From Hyphomicrobium sp. (GTDB lineage: Bacteria > Pseudomonadota > Alphaproteobacteria > Rhizobiales > Hyphomicrobiaceae), in assembly GCA_003987725.1 (NCBI GenBank), contig RXJH01000008.1:62001-126000 (forward strand): DNA of 64,000 nt, given 5' to 3'. The position numbers and the translations under genes are program-made. Below, one piece after another: positions 53,085 to 63,488 of this stretch (position 1 is the first letter of the stretch; every line of letters begins with the position of its first letter). A model generated the notes under the pieces. The model searched no databases. It had not been told where the DNA came from and saw only the letters and a list, made by a program, of their open reading frames with translations.

Positions 53085-54350
53085 ATGAAGCAAATGAAGC
53101 TCGAGGATTTGAAGCGGAAATCCCCCGCCGAGCTCGTCACCTTTGCCGAAGAGGCCGGTGTCGAGAACGCCTCGACCCTGCGCAAGCAGGAATTGATGTT
53201 CGCAACGCTGAAGCAGCTCGCGACCCAAGAAACCGAAATTACCGCGACCGGTGTCGTCGAAGTCCTGCAGGACGGCTTCGGCTTTTTAAGATCGCCGGAC
53301 GCCAACTATCTGCCCGGCCCCGATGACATCTATGTCTCGCCCTCGCAGATCCGTCGCTTTGCCCTCCGCACCGGCGATACCGTTGAAGGCCAGATCCGCT
53401 CGCCGAAAGACGGCGAACGCTACTTCGCCCTCCTCAAGGTCTCGAACATCAACTTCGAAGACCCCGAGAAGGCCAAGCACAAGAGCCACTTCGACAACCT
53501 GACGCCGCTTTATCCGACGCAGTGGTTGAAACTCGAAATCGAAGACCCGACCATCAAGGACCTGTCGTCCCGCGTGATCGACATCGTCTCGCCGCTCGGC
53601 AAAGGCCAGCGCGCCCTGATCGTCGCCCCGCCGCGCACCGGCAAGACGGTTCTCCTGCAGAACATCGCCCACTCGATCACGGCCAATCATCCGGAATGCT
53701 ATCTGATCGTCCTGCTGATCGACGAGCGGCCGGAAGAAGTCACCGACATGCAGCGGAACGTCAAAGGCGAGGTCATCTCCTCGACGTTCGACGAGCCGCC
53801 GTCACGGCACGTCCAGGTGTCGGAGATGGTCATCGAGAAGGCTAAGCGTCTCGTTGAGCATAAGCGCGATGTCGTCATCCTGCTCGACTCGATCACGCGC
53901 CTCGGTCGTGCCTACAACACAGTCGTTCCGTCTTCCGGCAAGGTCCTGACCGGCGGCGTCGACTCGAACGCCCTGCAGCGGCCGAAGCGCTTCTTCGGTG
54001 CGGCCCGCAACATCGAAGAAGGCGGCTCGCTGACCATCATCGCGACGGCCCTCATCGATACCGGCTCGCGCATGGACGAAGTGATCTTCGAAGAGTTCAA
54101 GGGTACAGGCAACTCGGAAATCATCCTGGACCGCAAGGTCTCCGACAAGCGAGTCTTCCCGGCGATCGACGTTTCGCGTTCGGGCACGCGTAAGGAAGAC
54201 CTGCTCGTTCCGAAGGATCAGCTCAAGAAGGTCTACGTCCTCCGCCGCATCCTCAACCCGATGGGCACGATGGACGGCATCGAGTTCCTCATCGACAAGC
54301 TCAGGTCCACCAAGACCAACGGCGAGTTCTTCCAATCGATGAATACGTAG
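53085..54350 (+). CDS. rho: Transcription termination factor Rho
   Basis: Hexameric RNA helicase that ends transcription, 421 residues. It has the N-terminal helical and cold-shock RNA-binding domains ([16 protein letters not shown]). Walker A is [15 protein letters not shown] near residue 180, Walker B is [16 protein letters not shown], and the Q- and R-loops sit in [19 protein letters not shown]. The ATG at 53085 ([14 protein letters not shown]) is preceded by GGAG. It lies between the hemEJ operon and a parS-like site. Confidence 0.97.
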
Positions 54351-54406: not shown

Positions 54407-54422
54407 AGATTCACGTGAAATG
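54407..54422. promoter_or_regulatory. parS: parS-like site 1
   Basis: AGATTCACGTGAAATG carries the full TCACGTGA core and matches 12 of 16 of the ParB consensus. It is between rho and the convergent desaturase gene. Confidence 0.5.
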
Positions 54423-54423
54423 G

Positions 54424-54454
54424 AAAAAGGCCGCCCAATCGAGCGGCCTTTTTT
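54424..54454. terminator. Bidirectional terminator after rho
   Basis: AAGGCCGC (54427-54434) pairs with GCGGCCTT (54443-54450); A and T runs flank the stem (AAAAA and TTTTTT). It lies between rho and the convergent hydroxylase gene. Confidence 0.85.
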
Positions 54455-54475
54455 GTTGTCCAGAGAACGGCGAAA

Positions 54476-55498
54476 CTACTCCGCCGCGTGAATGATCTGC
54501 TCGCGCGCTTCCTGCGCCGGCGTTTTGGCGGCAAGCTTTTTATAGCGCTCGGGCTCACCCTTGCCGGGCTCGTAGTAGAACGGCAGCAGCAGCTGCTCGA
54601 CATAGCCCTTCGGGAAATTCGGCAGCTCGTCGACGCCCATATCCTTGGACGTGATCTCACGCTTCGGCTTGTCGCTGAACGTGCCGAGCATCCTGTCCCA
54701 GATCGTCAGAAGCAGACCGAAATTGCAGTCGCCTTCCGTACCCCAGTTGACGTGGTGCATGTGATGCAGGCGTCCGATCGACAGGTGTTTTTGCAGCGGT
54801 CCAAGCCGCGCATCGACATTCGAGTGCTGCACGATCAGCGTCACCGAGATCACGAAGCCGAGCACCACCGCGACCGGCACAGGCATGCCGATGATCACGA
54901 GCGGCATGTTGCCGACGACCATGTCGATGACCTGATGGATGGGGTGGCGAATGACGCCGTTGTAGCCATAGAGCCGGCCGACCCCGTGATGAACCGCATG
55001 CAGCCTCCAGAGCGGCGCATACCGGTGGCTAAGATAATGCATCATCATGAAAGCGAAGTCGGCGACGAGGAACGCGATGAGCACCTGCGTCCACATCGGC
55101 CAGTGCGTCGGCCAAATGCCTTGGAACGGGAACAGCCAGCAGATGACCGGGATCAGGAAGACGCCATTCATCGCCGATATTTCATAGGCAGCGATGTGCG
55201 CAGTATTCGCGCCCATGTCCCCATGCGCGCCGTGATCGTTCCACTCATCGAAAAACGGCGCGATCTTCTCGGCCGCAAACGAAGTTGCATAGGCGATTGC
55301 CAGCAACGGCAGCAGCCAGAGGTATGCCCAGTGATTTCCTTGGGCGACGACCAGTTCGCTCACGACCCAGTAGGCGGCGAAGGTCAACCCGAACATCATA
55401 AATGGGGCGTAGCCGTATCGAACGACTTCCCGGAGATATTTCATGCGGAGCGGCCTTTCTACCCGACCTCTATATCGTTCTGAGGCTGTTTCAGCCAA
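54476..55498 (-). CDS. Fatty acid hydroxylase / sterol desaturase family protein
   Basis: Di-iron membrane enzyme of 340 residues with several helices. The histidine clusters are HYLSHRYAPLWRLHAVHH and LHHMHHVNWGTEGDCNFG, with another His in IRHPIHQ. The substrate (fatty acid, sterol-like lipid or carotenoid) is not known. The first ATG at 55498 adds 18 residues to a second Met (MKYLREVVRYGYAPF) that begins the usual family sequence. Confidence 0.87.
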   Translation of the reverse strand: MAETASERYRGRVERPLRMKYLREVVRYGYAPFMMFGLTFAAYWVVSELVVAQGNHWAYLWLLPLLAIAYATSFAAEKIAPFFDEWNDHGAHGDMGANTAHIAAYEISAMNGVFLIPVICWLFPFQGIWPTHWPMWTQVLIAFLVADFAFMMMHYLSHRYAPLWRLHAVHHGVGRLYGYNGVIRHPIHQVIDMVVGNMPLVIIGMPVPVAVVLGFVISVTLIVQHSNVDARLGPLQKHLSIGRLHHMHHVNWGTEGDCNFGLLLTIWDRMLGTFSDKPKREITSKDMGVDELPNFPKGYVEQLLLPFYYEPGKGEPERYKKLAAKTPAQEAREQIIHAAE

Positions 55499-55538
55499 GC
55501 GTTTGAACTCTGGGACGTTTCAACGCGGTAAAGAGTCA

Positions 55539-57569
55539 TCAGAAAGTTTCGGTCGCCGATCTCGCCGCCCGGAGCCGCGCGAGTAATTCGTCTGGCTCCT
55601 GCAAAGGCGTGCTACAGGTTGGCCCGACGCAGACGTAAGCCGTTGATTTGCCGCCGATGCCGGCTTTTCCAGCAAGCGGGGATTGGCTGGAGAGACTGGG
55701 CGCCGCAGCCGAGATGAACTCAACGGCTCCCGGTAGCGAAACCCGATTGAGCTCCGCTGCGAGATTATTGTCGCTGCCAATCACAGCAACTTGAACCAGA
55801 CGATCCAGATCAAGTTCCGCTGCGATCAGACCGCAGTGGCCAGTGGGAACGCGCGCCACGGCGCCCGAAAATGCGCTAACCAATTGCCGCGCCCGATTGT
55901 CGTAACGGCTATCGCCGGTGAGGGCGGCAAGCGCGATCAAGTTTGCAAGCTGGATGGCATTTGCACTTGGAACGGCATCATCCGATGCGGTCTTGAGGCG
56001 AACGACGACATCCGCCGTATCGTCGGCTGCCGTGAAGTATCCACCGCTCTCGCCATCCCAATAGTGCTGATCGAGGACATCGGCCCAGCGCTGGGCTTGA
56101 GCGAGATAGCTCTCCGATTGCGTCGCGCTGAAGAGCCGAAGCGCTGCCCATGTCATGTTCGCATAGTCGGATGCGGTGGCCGGCGCTTTGGCGAGACCTG
56201 CGCGATAGGAGTGAAAGAGACGATCGCCACCGGCCGAGAGCTTCGTCGTAATGCACGTGAAGGCACGTTCCGCGAGCGTCAGCCATTCCGGCTTTTGAAA
56301 TACTATCGCGGCGCGCGAAAGTGCGGCGATCATCAGACCGTTCCAATCGGCGAGGATCTTGTCGTCCCATCCCGGCCGCACACGCGATGCCCGCCGTTGA
56401 AGTAGCTTCGCACGCAGTCCCGCGAGACGCGCTTCTTCCGCATCCGAAAGCCAAGCGAGTGAGTCGAGACGATTGAGGATCGTATGGCCTTCGAAATTGC
56501 CGTTGGTCGTCACGCCATAGACGCGTGAGAAGAACGCGGCATCCTCCGCGCCGAGAGTGTCCGCGATTTCATCCGCGCTCCAAACGTAGAACTTGCCTTC
56601 TTCGCCTTCGCTGTCGGCATCAAGAGAAGCCGCGAAACCTCCGGCTTCACCGATCATCTCGCGCTCTAGCCAGGCGACGGTCTCGGCGATGCGGATCTTG
56701 AAGAGAGGCTCCTGCGTCTCGCGCCAAACCTCCGTCATGAGATCGATCAACAGCGCATTGTCGTAGAGCATCTTCTCGAAGTGCGGAACGAGCCAGAGCT
56801 CATCGACGGAATAGCGCGCGAACCCGCCGCCGAGATGATCGTAGATACCGCCCTGCGCGATATGGCGAAGCGTCGTGACGACCGCGTCCTTCGCACTCTT
56901 CTCGTCGTAGCGAATGGCGCCGCGCCATAGGAGCCAGAAGATATTCCATTGCGGAAACTTCGGTGCACCCGAAAGCCCGCCATGCTCGCGATCGACCGCG
57001 CGCGCGATGCGCTGCACGAGATCGCGAACATCTGGCCTCGGCACGTTCGCGCGATCGCTCGCGGCGCTATCATCCTTCAACGAAGCAATGAGCGCTTCGG
57101 TATTCTTGCGCACGTTGTCGGGCTGATTTTGATAAGCCTCCGAGATGCGCAGAAGCACCGTCACGAATGCCGGACGTCCGTATCGTGATTCACGTGGAAA
57201 GTAAGTTCCGCCCCAAAACGGTTTCGCGTCGCTGTCGAGAAACATCGTCAGCGGCCAGCCGCCCTGCTCGCCGAGCCGGTGCAGCGCGCCCATGTAGATC
57301 GCATCGATGTCGGGACGTTCCTCGCGATCGACTTTGATGTTGATGAAGAGGTTATTCATCACCTCCGCCGTCGCCGGATCTTCAAAGCTTTCGTGCGCCA
57401 TCACATGACACCAGTGGCACGCCGCATATCCGACGGAGAGTAGGATCGGTTGTCCCGTTCGCTTGGCTTCGGCAAGCGCCTCCGGACCCCAAGCCCACCA
57501 ATGCACCGGGTTGTCCTGGTGCTGTAGAAGATAAGGGCTGGTCTCATACTTCAGGCGATTTTCGCTCAA
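55539..57569 (-). CDS. DUF255 thioredoxin-domain protein (YyaL/spermatogenesis-associated protein 20 type)
   Basis: A 676-residue cytosolic protein with an N-terminal thioredoxin-like DUF255 domain ([38 protein letters not shown]) and a C-terminal (alpha/alpha)6 region resembling N-acylglucosamine epimerases ([31 protein letters not shown]). The start is TTG at 57569 ([16 protein letters not shown]); a longer frame overlaps the mnmE start on the other strand. The function is unknown. Confidence 0.85.
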
Positions 57570-57643
57570 TTCGCACCTGTCGGCGTTAGGAGGGATTTCG
57601 TGATCGAGTTGCGGTCGTCGCCGTCTACGAGTACGCGAAGCCA

Positions 57644-58957
57644 ATGAAAGAGGCTTCAACGATCTTCGCGCTTTCGAGCGCTCCAGGACGCGCCGGCGTC
57701 GCTGTCATCCGCGTATCGGGTCCCGCCGCTCGGAAGACGCTCGAAATGATGACGGGACCACTGCCGGAACCCCGCTTCGCTGCCTTCCGCACCATTAAGC
57801 ATCCAAAGACCGGCGACGTGCTCGACCGAGCTGTTGTCATCTGGTTCGCGGCGCCGAAAACCGAAACAGGCGAAGATATCGTCGAGTTCCAGGTTCACGG
57901 CAGCCGCGCCGTCATTGCCGCCTTGCTGTCGGCGCTGGGAGAGATCGCCGGATGCCGCTTAGCAGAGCCCGGCGAATTCGCCCGTCGCGCGTTCGAGAAC
58001 GGCAAGCTCGACCTGGCGGAAATCGAAGGCCTCGCGGATCTTATAGAAGCGGAAACAGAAGCCCAGCGCCGCCAGGCTCTCGCCCAGACGGCGGGCTCTC
58101 TCTCGAAGCTCTACGACGGCTGGCGAACCCGCTTGATCGAGATCGCCGCGCTGGTCGAAGCCGCAATCGACTTTTCCGACGAAGGCGACGTGTCGGCGTC
58201 GGCTTTCCATGAAGCGCGAAAACGCGCGGAAATATTGCAAAAGGAAATCGCCGCGCATCTCGATGACGGCCATCGCGGTGAGATTCTGCGCGAGGGATTC
58301 CGCGTCGCGCTTCTCGGGGCCCCGAATGCCGGCAAGTCCAGCCTTCTGAACGCTCTCGCGCGCCGTGATGCGGCGATCGTCTCGGCCGAAGCCGGAACCA
58401 CGCGCGACATCATCGAGGTTCGCCTCGACCTCGCTGGCCTCGCCGTCATCTTCTCCGACACCGCCGGCATTCGCGAAGCTTCAAGCGACGTCGAACGCGA
58501 AGGCATCCGGCGCAGCCTCGCTGCCGCCCGTGACGCCGACCTGGTGCTGTGGCTGGCCGAAAATCCTGAATCGATTCCGCCACTTAATTTTTCACGTGAA
58601 ACAAGTCTTGCAATCCGTTCCAAACAGGATCTTGCACTTGATTCCCGCTTTGACGGCCTCGCCGTCTCGGCCAAGACCGGCGCCGGCATCGACCAGCTCA
58701 TCGCGGAGATCGCAAAACGCGCGTCCGAAGCCGTCGGCTCTGCGACCGAACCGGCGCTGACCCGGGCCCGTCACCGGGAAGCCCTGGAAAATGCCTTGAA
58801 TGATATCGCCGTCTTCCTTAACGGCCCCCCGGGACCGATCGAACTTCGCGCCGAGGACGTGCGCCGCGCTGCTCAGGCGCTGGGCCGGATCACCGGCCGA
58901 GTCGATGTCGAGGACGTCCTTGACCAAATTTTCGGTCGATTCTGCATCGGCAAGTGA
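57644..58957 (+). CDS. mnmE: tRNA modification GTPase MnmE
   Basis: GTPase that with MnmG installs the carboxymethylaminomethyl group on wobble U34, 437 residues. It has an N-terminal folate-binding domain, a central helical domain, a G domain with P-loop [12 protein letters not shown] (near residue 225) and DTAG, and a C-terminal CIGK tail with the conserved Cys. The G4 motif is SKQD rather than NKxD. Residues 317-320 are SRET, encoded by a parS-like site (58588-58603) inserted just before G4. ATG at 57644. Confidence 0.96.
58588..58603. promoter_or_regulatory. parS: parS-like site 2, inside mnmE
   Basis: TTTTTCACGTGAAACA matches 15 of 16 positions of the consensus TGTTTCACGTGAAACA. It is read as S317-R-E-T320 by mnmE. 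Confidence 0.85.
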
Positions 58958-58965
58958 GTCCAAAA

Positions 58966-58981
58966 GGTTTCACGTGAAATG
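58966..58981. promoter_or_regulatory. parS: parS-like site 3, mnmE-mnmG spacer
   Basis: GGTTTCACGTGAAATG matches 13 of 16. It lies 9 bp after the mnmE stop and may also end up in the mnmG leader. Confidence 0.7.
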
Positions 58982-59079
58982 ATTCCCGGATTCGCAAGCC
59001 CTCATTTTTAGACTCCTGTGGGCAACGTCCGGCGACATACCGCCTTTTGCGCGACCCCCGGATGCGCTAGACCCCGCCA

Positions 59080-61044
59080 ATGAACCAATACGACGTCATC
59101 GTTGTGGGCGGAGGCCACGCCGGAACCGAAGCAGCCGCGGCTGCGGCGCGCATGGGCGCTCGGACGGCGCTCGTCACCCATGCCTTCGCAACGATCGGCG
59201 AAATGTCGTGCAATCCGGCCATCGGCGGCCTCGGAAAGGGCCATCTGGTCCGCGAAATCGACGCCCTTGACGGCCTGATGGGCCGCGTGGCCGACGCCGC
59301 CGGGATCCAGTTCCGGCTTCTGAACCGCTCGAAAGGCCCCGCCGTCCACGGTCCCCGCACCCAAGCCGACCGCAAGCTCTACCGTCAGGCCATGCAGGCC
59401 GAAATCGCCGCGATTCCGAACCTCGACGTCATCGAAGGCGGGGTCGAGGACCTAATTGTCGTCGATGGCCGGGTCGAGGGCGCCATCACCGCCAATGGCC
59501 GCGAGCTGCGCGCGGGCGCCGTCATTCTAACGACCGGCACCTTCCTGAATGGCCTCATTCATATGGGCGAGCAGAAGATTCCCGCCGGCCGGGCTGGCGA
59601 AGCCCCCGCCCTGAAGCTCTCCGAACGCCTCTACGGCCTCGGCCTGAAACTGGGGCGCCTGAAGACGGGCACCCCGGCGCGCCTTGACGGCAAATCGATC
59701 GATTGGTCGGGCCTCGAAATGCAAAAGGCCGACGACGACCCGGTGCCGTTTTCGTTTCTGACCGAAGCCGTCACGACACCGCAAATCGCCTGCGGGATCA
59801 CCTACACGAACGAAGCGACGCATGAGATCATTCGCGCCAATCTCGCGCGTTCGCCTATGTATTCGGGCCAAATCGAGAGCGTCGGCCCGCGCTATTGCCC
59901 GTCGATCGAGGACAAGGTTGTGCGATTCGCCGACCGCGCCGCGCACCAGATTTTCCTCGAACCCGAAGGCCTCGACGATGACACCATCTATCCGAACGGC
60001 GTCTCGACGTCGCTGCCGGTCGAAGTCCAGGACGCCTTTCTGAAAACCATGCCGGGGCTCGCCAATGTCGTGATCAAGCGGCCCGGCTACGCCATCGAAT
60101 ACGACTACGTCGATCCGCGCGAGTTGACCCCGGGCCTCGAGGTCAAGCGCCTGCCCGGCCTCTTCCTCGCCGGCCAGATCAATGGCACCACCGGGTACGA
60201 GGAAGCGGGAGCCCAAGGCCTTCTTGCCGGCATCAACGCCGCCCTGACCGCAAGCCGAACGACATGCGATTCAACCTCCAGTGATTCACGTGAAACGGAT
60301 TCACGTGAAACAGGAGCCCCAGTTTTTGGAGATTCGTTCGAGGATTCACGTGAAACGTACGCCATTTCGCGGACGGCCGGCTACCTTGGCGTCATGGTCG
60401 ACGACCTGATCACCCGGGGCGTTTCCGAGCCCTACCGGATGTTTACGTCACGAGCGGAATTCCGGCTGAAGCTCCGCGCCGACAACGCCGACCAGCGCCT
60501 GACGCCCGAAGGCATCGCCCTCGGCTGCGTCGGCCCCGAACGCCGCCAGAAGTTCGAGACCAAGGCCAAAGCCCTCGCCGAAGGTCTGGATCTCCTGAAC
60601 CAGCTCTCGCTGACCCCGACCGAGGCAGCCCGCCATGGCCTGACCGTCAATCGTGACGGCCGGCGCCGTACGGCCTTCGATTTGTTGGCTTTTCCCGAAA
60701 TCTCGCTCGATCGCCTGAAATCCGTTTGGCCCGAAATCGGCAACATCCAGCCGCGGATCGCCGACCAGCTCGAGGTCGACGCCCGCTACGCCGCCTATCT
60801 CCGCCGCCAGGACGAGGATGTCGACCAGCTGAAGCGGGACGAGGCCGTCCGCATCCCGGATGACTTCGATTACGCCGCCATTCCGAGCCTTTCAGCCGAG
60901 ATTCGCCAGAAACTGGCCCGTCACCGCCCCTCGACGATTGCCCAGGCCGGCCGCATCGAGGGCATGACGCCCGCCGCGCTTCTGACCCTGCTCGCCCGCC
61001 TCAAGGCAGCCAAGAGCGGCAAACGCGACCGCAAGAGCGCCTAA
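59080..61044 (+). CDS. mnmG: tRNA modification FAD enzyme MnmG (GidA) with parS-encoded insertion
   Basis: FAD/NADH-dependent partner of MnmE in tRNA wobble-uridine modification, 654 residues. FAD fold [19 protein letters not shown]; further blocks are [11 protein letters not shown] and [22 protein letters not shown]. Between GINAALTAS and [14 protein letters not shown], where I expect a short loop, there is an insertion (about residues 396-430) that includes three DSRET copies (402-406, 407-411, 422-426), each encoded by a parS-like palindrome. The stop overlaps rsmG (TAATG). Confidence 0.96.
60282..60297. promoter_or_regulatory. parS: parS-like site 4, inside mnmG
   Basis: TGATTCACGTGAAACG matches 14 of 16 of the consensus and encodes D402-S-R-E-T406 in mnmG. 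Confidence 0.8.
60297..60312. promoter_or_regulatory. parS: parS-like site 5, inside mnmG
   Basis: GGATTCACGTGAAACA matches 14 of 16. It begins 15 bp after site 4, so its reading frame stays the same (residues 407-411). Confidence 0.8.
60342..60357. promoter_or_regulatory. parS: parS-like site 6, inside mnmG
   Basis: GGATTCACGTGAAACG matches 13 of 16 and encodes D422-S-R-E-T426. It is 45 bp after site 5, again in frame. Confidence 0.78.
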
Positions 61045-61700
61045 TGGCGCCGGCCCGTATCGACACGCCGGAAGAGTTTCAACGCCGGTTCGAAGTTTCC
61101 GATGAAATCCGTGAAAAGCTCGAAACTTACGCTGCGCTTCTGAAGCGCTGGCAGAAAACCATCAACCTCGTCGCTCCGAGCACGCTCGACGAAGTCTGGC
61201 ACCGCCATTTCGCCGATAGCGCCCAGCTCTGGCGCTACCGCCCCGAAGGCGCCCGGACGTGGCTCGACCTCGGGTCCGGCGCCGGTTTTCCGGGCCTCGT
61301 CCTGGCGATCATGGCTTCCGAAACCGGTGGCACGCGCCACATACTGGTCGAGAGCGATAGCAGAAAGGCCGCATTCATGCGCGAAGTCGCGCGCGAAACC
61401 CGCGTTGCTGTGGACATTCTGGGCATGAGGATCGAAAATCCCGAGACTCAGGCTAAGGTAGGCAAGGCCGACTGCGTTACCGCGCGCGCACTTGCACCAC
61501 TCTCACGACTGGTCGAGATCGCGGCACCTTATTTTGCGTCTTCTACGCTTGGCATGTTCTTGAAAGGCCGTGACGTCTCGGCCGAACTCGAGAACGCAGC
61601 TCGAGACTGGCAGTTTGCCTTTGAGCTGATTCCAAGCGTTACGGAAGAGGCCGGCCGCGTTGTGTTGCTCAAAGCGTTGAACCCAAGGACGGAGGGATAA
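61044..61700 (+). CDS. rsmG: 16S rRNA m7G527 methyltransferase RsmG (GidB)
   Basis: SAM-dependent methylation of 16S rRNA G527, 218 residues. The SAM site is LDLGSGAGFPGLVLAIM, with VESDSRKAAFMREVARE next and DCVTARALAPLSRLVE in the middle. ATG at 61044 shares a base with the mnmG stop. It is followed 4 bp later by parA, the conserved rsmG-parA-parB order. Confidence 0.95.
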   Translation: MAPARIDTPEEFQRRFEVSDEIREKLETYAALLKRWQKTINLVAPSTLDEVWHRHFADSAQLWRYRPEGARTWLDLGSGAGFPGLVLAIMASETGGTRHILVESDSRKAAFMREVARETRVAVDILGMRIENPETQAKVGKADCVTARALAPLSRLVEIAAPYFASSTLGMFLKGRDVSAELENAARDWQFAFELIPSVTEEAGRVVLLKALNPRTEG

Positions 61701-61704
61701 ACCC

Positions 61705-62550
61705 GTGGCCGGCTACGTTTCAGGCACGGGCGGTGCGAACGCGGGACCGCGTGTCGTTGCTGTCTCCAATCAGAAAGGCGGCGTCGGCAAAACGACGACC
61801 GCGATCAATCTCGGCACCGCGCTGGCAGCGGTCGGCGAGCGGGTTCTTATCCTCGACCTCGATTCGCAGGGCAACGCTTCGACCGGTCTTGGCGTCGATA
61901 TCGAGCAGCGCTTCAAGACGACATTCGACGTTTTGACGGGCAACGCCGCGATCCTTGAGACCGTCCTGAAAACGGCGGTCCCGAATCTTTTCATCGTACC
62001 GGCGAACAGCGATCTCGTTGGTATCGACGCGGCGCTTGCGGCCGACCCGAACAAGGCGTTCAAGCTCCGCGACGCGATCACGGCAATGATCGGACATCTG
62101 CGCGCGCGCGATGCGGATCAGCAATTTACGTATGTGCTGATCGACTGCCCGCCGTCGCTCAATCTGCTGACTCTCAACGCCATGTCCGCGGCGCATGCGG
62201 TTCTCGTGCCGGTTCAATGCGAGTTCTTCGCGCTCGAAGGTATTTCGCAGTTGAAGGATTCCATCGAGCAGATCCGCGCGACGCTCAATCCGCGTCTCGA
62301 AATTCAAGGCGTCGTGCTGACAATGCACGACGGCCGCACATCGCTGTCGCGCGAAGTCGCCGACAACGTCCGCGCCTTCTTCGGCAACAAGGTCTACGAC
62401 ACGGTCATCCCGCGCAACACGCGCATTGCCGAGGCGCCATCGCACGGCAAGCCGATTCTTCTCTACGATTACGATTGCGCCGGCAGCCAGGCCTATATCC
62501 GGCTCGCCACCGAAATCATGGAGCGCGAGCGGCGATACAAGGCCGCCTAA
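61705..62550 (+). CDS. parA: Chromosome partitioning ATPase ParA
   Basis: Deviant Walker ATPase that pulls ParB-parS complexes during chromosome segregation, 281 residues. The deviant P-loop is SNQKGGVGKTTTAIN (Lys in KGGVGKT at about residues 25-31). Other motifs are ILDLDSQGNASTGLG and YVLIDCPPSLNLLTLNAMSA. The start is GTG at 61705. It forms an operon with parB 59 bp downstream. Confidence 0.97.
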   Translation: MAGYVSGTGGANAGPRVVAVSNQKGGVGKTTTAINLGTALAAVGERVLILDLDSQGNASTGLGVDIEQRFKTTFDVLTGNAAILETVLKTAVPNLFIVPANSDLVGIDAALAADPNKAFKLRDAITAMIGHLRARDADQQFTYVLIDCPPSLNLLTLNAMSAAHAVLVPVQCEFFALEGISQLKDSIEQIRATLNPRLEIQGVVLTMHDGRTSLSREVADNVRAFFGNKVYDTVIPRNTRIAEAPSHGKPILLYDYDCAGSQAYIRLATEIMERERRYKAA

Positions 62551-62609: not shown

Positions 62610-63488
62610 ATGAACTCGATGGTGCCGAAGAGCCGCCTAGGCCGTGGCCTTGCCTCTCTCATCGGAGAACCGGCACCTCTCGGACATCGCCTTCCGCCCG
62701 AGGGCGAGCAGCGCATGGTCTCGATCGCCGAGGTCAAGTCGAGCCCGCTCAACCCGCGCAAGGATTTCCGCGACGATGAACTCGCGGAGCTGGCGGAGTC
62801 TATCCGCACCAAGGGTCTCGTCCAGCCGATCGTCGTTAGGCCGAACGGAATGTCGGGCGGCTACGAGATCGTCGCCGGTGAACGCCGGTGGCGCGCGGCG
62901 CAAAAAGCCGGGATGCACACCATCCCCGTGATCATCCGCGAGCTCTCCGACCGCGAAGTCCTTGAGCTTGCGATCATCGAGAACGTTCAGCGGCAGGACT
63001 TGAACGCCATCGAAGAGGCGTCGGGCTATCGCGAGCTCGTCGAGCGCTTCGATTACAGCCAGGAACAGCTCTCCGAAATCATCGGCAAAAGCCGCAGCCA
63101 CGTCGCCAACACGCTCCGGCTGTTGAAGCTCCCCGCCCCCGTCCAGTCGCTCGTCCAGCAGGGCCAGCTGACGGCCGGTCACGCGCGTGCTCTGATCGGC
63201 CGCGCCGACGCTGAATCGCTGGCGAAGAAGATCATCGACGACAGCCTGAACGTCCGCGACGTCGAAGCGCTCGTCCAGCAGACGTTCGGTCAAGAGGGCC
63301 CGACTGGCGGCAACCGGCGTGCGCGCGACAAGGATGCCGACACGAAGGCCTTCGAGAAAGAGCTGACCGATCTCTTGGGGTTGAAGGTCGAAGTTCGGCG
63401 CGGGTCGGGCGAAACCGGCACCCTTACGATCCGGTACGGCAACTTCGACCAGCTGGACTACATTCGCCAACGCCTTGGCGGAGGTTGA
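62610..63488 (+). CDS. parB: Chromosome partitioning protein ParB
   Basis: parS-binding CTPase that spreads and loads SMC, 292 residues. The N-terminal ParB/Sulfiredoxin domain has IVVRPNGMSGGYEIVAGERRWRAAQKAG (the GERRWRA box). The central HTH is in GKSRSHVANTLRLLKLP, and the C-terminal dimer domain ends in YGNFDQLDYIRQRLGG. ATG at 62610. Six parS-like sites lie 2.2 to 8.2 kb upstream. Confidence 0.97.
   Translation: MNSMVPKSRLGRGLASLIGEPAPLGHRLPPEGEQRMVSIAEVKSSPLNPRKDFRDDELAELAESIRTKGLVQPIVVRPNGMSGGYEIVAGERRWRAAQKAGMHTIPVIIRELSDREVLELAIIENVQRQDLNAIEEASGYRELVERFDYSQEQLSEIIGKSRSHVANTLRLLKLPAPVQSLVQQGQLTAGHARALIGRADAESLAKKIIDDSLNVRDVEALVQQTFGQEGPTGGNRRARDKDADTKAFEKELTDLLGLKVEVRRGSGETGTLTIRYGNFDQLDYIRQRLGGG

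Follow-up and report, generated by a model that had tools for sequence, protein, structure and literature searches.

The mnmG gene of a Hyphomicrobium sp. reads the pentapeptide DSRET three times over a DNA word that resembles parS. Is this stretch kept for its peptide or for its DNA, and how did it come to lie inside a reading frame? The window analyzed is a 64,000-nucleotide stretch in which the gene order is mnmE, mnmG, rsmG, parA, and parB, with the start of parA 0.7 kb downstream of mnmG. It was compared in a survey that covers 261 mnmG loci, made up of the window itself, 80 named loci, a further 20 from the genus, 60 from other genera of the family, 40 from other families of the order, and 60 hand-chosen from a search of the class. 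The genus set contained 22 genomes, and one (G014) had no mnmG match and was left out to give 21 loci. Ten of these 21 loci have an enlarged MnmG loop, all with two or three parS-like sites inside, and they are called the loop genomes here. The remaining 11 have neither the insert nor mnmG loop sites.

Three parS-like sites in the mnmG frame

The features of the host gene are as follows.

59080..61044, + strand: mnmG (gidA), the host gene, 654 aa; NCBIfam TIGR00136, 816.6 bits against a cut-off of 524.85
60268..60357, + strand: lineage-specific loop insert, partly on 15-bp units, about residues 397–426; pLDDT under 50 at 398–424
60268..60282, + strand: possible decayed unit GATTCAACCTCCAGT (DSTSS), 7/15 identity to the parS unit
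60283..60296, + strand: parS-like site A, GATTCACGTGAAAC, DSRET residues 402–406; D, S, R, and E codons identical in 10/10 loop genomes
60298..60311, + strand: parS-like site B, GATTCACGTGAAAC, DSRET residues 407–411; 15 bp from site A
60343..60356, + strand: parS-like site C, GATTCACGTGAAAC, DSRET residues 422–426; D, S, R, and E codons identical in 10/10 loop genomes

The initial annotation had reported DSRET three times in the mnmG frame, and its positions and residues are exact: GAT TCA CGT GAA AC(A/G) is read at 60283, 60298, and 60343. It had also placed a ParB-site palindrome beneath each peptide. Each site is one mismatch (T to A, left half) from the symmetric word GTTTCACGTGAAAC and has an unaltered right half GTGAAAC, which is consistent with three candidate ParB sites.

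The word is rare elsewhere. The window has nine matches to TTTCACGTGAAA at two or fewer mismatches compared to a mean of 1.80 (sd 1.41) after shuffling, and none of 100 shuffled windows reached nine. Ten places in the window's own genome (4.25 Mb, 15 contigs) match TTTCACGTGAAA at one mismatch or fewer. Six of them lie within 54409–60355 of the window, at most 9.1 kb from the end of parB, and the remaining four are on other contigs and are changed in or directly beside CACGTG. When the assemblies of all ten loop genomes, the window's own included, were searched, exact GATTCACGTGAAAC was found only in the mnmG loop.

Coding sites with the core TTCACGTGAA across the 261 loci, which are related and hence not independent samples, use the SRET frame 265 times, the FHVK frame 30 times, and the third frame never. 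The proposal that only two of the three frames avoid the TGA stop thus stands for the intact word, but it does not extend to two weaker sites that use the third frame with TGG or TGT replacing TGA. Both coding parS genes of the window had been assigned to the SRET frame, and this is the case: mnmE reads FSRET at residue 316 and mnmG reads DSRET.

The insertion tracks with parS

Loop length, counted from GYEE to the conserved Y-x-G block that follows, was measurable in 260 of the 261 loci. The distance is 23–36 residues in 250 loci and 48–58 in ten, and these ten are exactly the loci with parS in the loop. Whether the insertion follows parS had been left to an alignment of relatives. The insert is absent from 11/11 same-genus mnmG genes without parS at that place, and among the 260 loci only the ten with parS carry it. 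These data support an insertion that tracks with parS in the survey. The ten loop genomes form one clade with 100/100 support in a tree of 27 rows built from five concatenated proteins after removal of the loop, the mnmE site, and the start of rsmG. The clade contains lineage A1 with three sites (G000, G015, G018, G020, G003, and G001) and lineage A2 with two (G012, G007, G016, and G010).

The insert falls between conserved parts of the protein. The Pfam GIDA match (residues 5–392) stops just ahead of it, and the match to the C-terminal helical domain starts at 487. The best relatives with a solved structure, 3cp2 and 3ces, both of which we take to be Escherichia coli MnmG, align to residue 390, and the 3cp2 alignment restarts at 423. 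An AlphaFold2 model (35 sequences) has a mean pLDDT of 85.9 that drops below 50 at residues 398–424, flanked by helices 373–396 and 435–446. The initial annotation expected a short loop between conserved blocks and called for placement on an MnmG structure model. The model agrees: residues 398–424, past the GIDA end at 392, are predicted to be disordered, and the insert falls in a low-pLDDT loop between two predicted helices. The loop tolerates other inserts, because a locus of the same family outside the survey, L091 (G031), has a long MnmG loop insert with other content and without parS. The L091 insert contains PPSRPSPTRREGVGG and resembles an unrelated translated repeat.

The insert appears to be partly built from 15-bp units

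The A2 insert reads as four contiguous 15-bp blocks that match GATTCACGTGAAACG at 10–11, 14–15, 7–10, and 14–15 of 15 positions. The same mnmG genes contain 2428 in-frame 15-mers, of which none matches at 11 or more positions, 0.04% match at 10 or more, and 3.4% match at 7 or more. The A1 insert has GATTCA of the first block, intact second and third blocks, a unit-less stretch, and then the last block. Its sites A and B are spaced 15 bp apart, and B and C are spaced 33 bp apart in five genomes or 45 bp in the window. No clear unit lies between B and C, a stretch of 18 bp in the five genomes and 30 bp in the window, where it is 4/15 and 2/15 identical to the unit. The presumed decayed first unit has 7/15 identity in the window, a value that 3.4% of in-frame 15-mers equal or better, and 10–11/15 in sister lineage A2. 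All ten loop genomes share its half word GATTCA (60268–60273) unchanged, and the remainder has diverged among them.

Exact units also occur near mnmG outside this array. G019, a genome of the genus outside the clade, carries a pair of exact units in reverse orientation before mnmG, spaced 15 bp apart, and G008 and G017 each have two exact units 48 bp apart. These data indicate that the parS unit already existed next to mnmG.

The loop could instead have been enlarged by an unrelated insertion and acquired parS later by point mutation, a disordered loop tolerating many codons. The parS-free insert of L091 at the same place and the A1 B–C spacer without a clear unit, 18 bp in five of six genomes, speak for this order of events. 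Against it, none of the 21 same-genus loci has an enlarged loop without parS, and the 15-bp register together with the 10–11/15 identity of the first A2 unit favors unit multiplication. We consider an unrelated first insertion unlikely.

parS-like sites around parAB

Words close to that of the mnmG array stand in the neighboring genes and spacers.

54409..54420, + strand: parS-like site ATTCACGTGAAA, between a gene ending at 54350, presumably rho by resemblance, and the reverse-strand gene 54476–55498
57644..58957, + strand: mnmE; NF003661, 580 bits against a cut-off of 380
58589..58602, + strand: parS-like site within mnmE, FSRET residues 316–320
58967..58980, + strand: intergenic parS-like site in the mnmE–mnmG spacer, GTTTCACGTGAAAT
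61044..61700, + strand: rsmG (gidB); TIGR00138, 120.7 bits against a cut-off of 99.5
61095..61109, + strand: usual position of parS in rsmG, here eroded to GTTTCCGATGAAATC (VSDEI)
61705..62550, + strand: parA, a ParA-family ATPase by its place before parB and its ParA/MinD-family matches, all below curated cut-offs
62610..63488, + strand: parB, with ParB_N, HTH_ParB, and ParB_C domains

The spacer between mnmE and mnmG has a parS-like site in 10/10 loop genomes. A coding site in mnmE, whose place is not constant, was present in 18/18 same-genus loci with mnmE found and in 0/46 from other genera of the family. A two-mismatch parS-like site, ATTCACGTGGAA, lies at 57188–57199 in the reverse-strand frame 55539–57659, which we take from its resemblance to encode a thioredoxin-domain protein.

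The ParB stretch KSRSHVANTLRLL is identical by eye across the 18 same-genus ParB proteins compared, eight of them from loop genomes. No sign of a changed ParB specificity in the loop clade was visible by eye in the HTH core of the 18 proteins. The asymmetry of the mnmG sites would suit another CACGTG-recognizing protein in place of ParB, but this reading is highly improbable given that the mnmG word is near-identical to the coding and intergenic parS-like sites that surround parAB across the survey, and that its right half GTGAAA is the part reported to be conserved among Caulobacter parS (PMC5815017).

Selection acts on the DNA word

Sites A and C are spelled GAT TCA CGT GAA in each of the ten loop genomes, as is site B in each of the six A1 genomes; site B is intact in 0/4 A2 genomes. 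The Thr codon at sites A and C varies among genomes, and its third base lies outside the 14-mer. Elsewhere in mnmG, invariant residues are encoded by a single codon in 6/26 Asp, 0/15 Ser, 2/41 Arg, and 4/26 Glu columns. The chance of eight frozen codons is roughly 5e-8 if codons are assumed to be independent. The mnmE site is TTT TCA CGT GAA ACA in 10/10 loop genomes, and single-codon columns elsewhere in mnmE are 4/15 for Ser and 3/33 for Arg. The codon evidence indicates that the DNA word is selected beyond the peptide alone, because the DSRE codons are fixed at their synonymous positions.

That the tandem DSRET repeat serves MnmG at the protein level, for example in binding or modification, and matches the DNA word incidentally, is hardly credible: the copies are in frame, hydrophilic, and within a loop, but their GAT, TCA, CGT, and GAA codons are frozen where the same residues elsewhere switch codon, DSRE in this spelling has a probability of 0.003 per site by local codon usage, and no other-codon spelling of DSRET was found in the ten loop genomes.

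The locus has four features of chromosomal parS, namely a close match to the near-palindromic consensus around CACGTG, clustering with parAB, an HTH-bearing ParB, and purifying selection at the DNA level. The word centromere for the mnmG array rests on sequence, constraint, and position beside parAB, and the array is best called a putative one. The proposal of the initial annotation that a centromere is embedded in a tRNA-modification gene and leaves a peptide scar gains support from the clade tracking, the frozen codons, and the predicted disordered loop.

The usual site in rsmG has eroded in the loop clade

The usual place of parS in most loci is past the mnmG stop, within rsmG. Counting sites with one mismatch or fewer and an unchanged CACGTG, it is present in 62/80 named loci (rsmG found in 76), 45/60 of the family (57), 30/40 of the order (38), and 50/60 of the class (59). 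Almost all of these sites are in the SRET frame and chiefly read VSRET or ISRET. Seven read FHVK (five named, one order, and one class), and one from the order lies in the third frame, with TGG.

The RsmG comparison was anchor-based and retained 225 sequences; 25 of 250 had no anchor and were dropped. SRET is at the usual place in 166/225, and 162 of these 166 carry TTCACGTGAA. The other four are one or two bases off the core. The core occurs with another peptide in 9/225 (seven VSRES and two ISREV), neither SRET nor the core in 46/225, and a site elsewhere in the N terminus in 4/225. The SRET peptide in RsmG follows the parS DNA, because 162 of 166 SRET peptides carry the core and the exceptions are one or two bases off it.

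At one mismatch or fewer, rsmG parS is present in 10/11 non-loop loci of the genus compared to 0/10 loop loci. The ten read VSRET or ISRET at the equivalent of window positions 61095..61109, and L123, the sole non-loop genus locus without the rsmG site, has GTTTCACATGAAACA. The site is degraded in 10/10 loop genomes. Intermediate states in the rsmG frame are ATTTCACGTGAAGTC (L114 and L115), ATTTCACGCGAAACC (L112), and ATTTCACGCGAAGTC (L113); the window has GTTTCCGATGAAATC, and erosion has gone further in L111 and L116–L119. The inner ten bases TTCACGTGAA survive in L114 and L115, where they might still bind ParB. These data, which go beyond the initial annotation, show that rsmG normally carries a translated parS in the loci surveyed and that the loop clade has only degraded forms of it.

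Among the 251 loci with rsmG, mnmG-internal parS (beyond residue 10, one mismatch or fewer) and rsmG parS (its spacer included) are negatively associated: 16 loci have mnmG only, 182 rsmG only, 17 both, and 36 neither (Fisher p = 1e-4). L133, counted among the 16, is a misassignment, since its site lies in a long frame that continues into rsmG, and 17/33 loci with mnmG-internal parS and rsmG retain a site in rsmG or the preceding spacer. The loop clade counts as a single event on the tree for the gain-loss link, and related loci are not independent samples. Gene-to-gene relocation as a class-wide rule is not supported: without the genus p = 0.26, and the signal is the loop clade.

Other sites in mnmG and beyond

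At two or fewer mismatches, 61 sites lie in the mnmG frame of 44/261 loci, and the ten loop loci account for 26 of these sites; matches with two mismatches may be due to chance, and the L133 site really lies in rsmG. The non-loop sites are at the N terminus (MFHVK), at the equivalents of residues 329, 352, 444, 486, 491, 501, and 505, and near the C terminus. The loop array was absent from all other loci of the 261 surveyed. L239, L285, and L286 have TTTCACGTGGAAC at the residue 444 equivalent, read as VSRGT in a strongly conserved part of MnmG. Four genomes of one family, the window's own (L132, L134, L135, and L136), have CTTCACGTGAAACG at the residue 352 equivalent, where it reads LHVKR immediately ahead of a conserved block.

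Two words lie farther away. Twelve genomes of the genus retain GATTCACGTGAAGC (L291–L301 and L304; e.g., L292:1009–1022), 64–104 kb from mnmG in the 11 of 12 with both on one contig. It reads IHVK just ahead of the HisB N-terminal peptide, identified by family search for L292 and by the same peptide in the other 11 loci, and it overlaps a possible GTG start. A distal parS is one possible reading of GATTCACGTGAAGC and a word of the start region another, and no parS role is assigned to it because of the HisB-start reading and the overlap with the possible GTG start. GATTCATGTGAAAC (L302 and L303) is a parS-like word with a central change about 36–38 kb from mnmG in G001, G018, G020, and G003, and it was not found in the window's own genome.

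Discussion

We consider it very probable that the three DSRET blocks are parS and that a 15-bp unit multiplied in the MnmG loop, after which the rsmG site eroded. The computed support is the sequence, the clade-specific insertion, the synonymous freezing, the rsmG degradation, and the predicted disordered loop. Weighing against it are the one-base departure of each site from symmetry, the single event behind the gain-loss link, the inner rsmG core that survives in two loop genomes, the loci that have sites in both genes, and the irregular A1 insert. The DSRET codon blocks would be ParB nucleation sites of the chromosomal centromere. In the clade ancestor, the 15-bp unit GATTCACGTGAAACN would have inserted into the disordered loop that separates the FAD domain of MnmG from its C-terminal helices and then, we infer, multiplied in tandem. 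Since 15 bp make five codons, each copy remains in frame and encodes DSRET. Two or three copies would have been retained by selection on the DNA word as the other copies decayed. With the mnmG cluster present, the usual translated rsmG parS probably became dispensable and eroded. ParB loads at parS with CTP. At the mnmG sites it is predicted to load in this way, slide into the DNA from mnmE to parB, and join ParA-driven segregation.

With less confidence, we favor a broader reading in which the translated centromere turns over among neighboring genes: parS in the mnmE, mnmG, and rsmG frames would dictate SRET or FHVK peptides in alphaproteobacteria, and in this clade a 15-bp parS unit would have been amplified in frame inside mnmG while the usual rsmG site decayed together with its peptide. 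If these readings are true, core RNA-modification enzymes bear peptide scars of chromosome segregation, and a protein-binding DNA word under selection shapes the sequences of conserved enzymes. VSRET-type motifs in RsmG would mislead if read as protein features, since the motifs follow the DNA. Because one 15-bp unit amounts to five codons, simple tandem duplication could also enlarge a centromere within coding DNA. The expansion of the centromere region over time is called an interesting biological question in the portion of the Caulobacter paper available (PMC5815017). Both states of parS gain and loss in this region, with intermediates, are found here within one genus.

Among the papers listed in a literature search, judged by title and start of abstract and with subscription journals mostly outside it, none was on a translated parS insertion. 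Rickettsia palindromic elements (RPEs) are dispersed repeats of palindromic DNA that lie inside protein genes and are translated. The mnmG array is like an RPE in that palindromic DNA is carried in a protein gene and translated. It is unlike the dispersed RPEs in that its site is 14 bp, the exact unit is confined in its own genome to the mnmG loop, and the mnmG codons are kept base for base. Proteins with RPEs are listed in the part of PMC2635572 available. The parS sites within repABC coding sequences of Rhodobacterales have a different parS word and belong to plasmids or chromids, whereas the array is on the main chromosome.

The closest likeness is to the intragenic chromosomal parS of Pseudomonas aeruginosa and Caulobacter crescentus, which also lie inside protein genes. 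Coding parS is on record for both in the available portions of the accounts (P. aeruginosa, PMC4368675; Caulobacter, PMC5815017), and P. aeruginosa parS3 is also termed intergenic in the corresponding portion of a later paper (PMC5521831). Those portions describe no lineage-specific in-frame repeated parS insertion with erosion of the site in a neighboring gene. Intragenic parS is known, and the proposed in-frame multiplication of parS in mnmG with rsmG erosion would be a new form of it.
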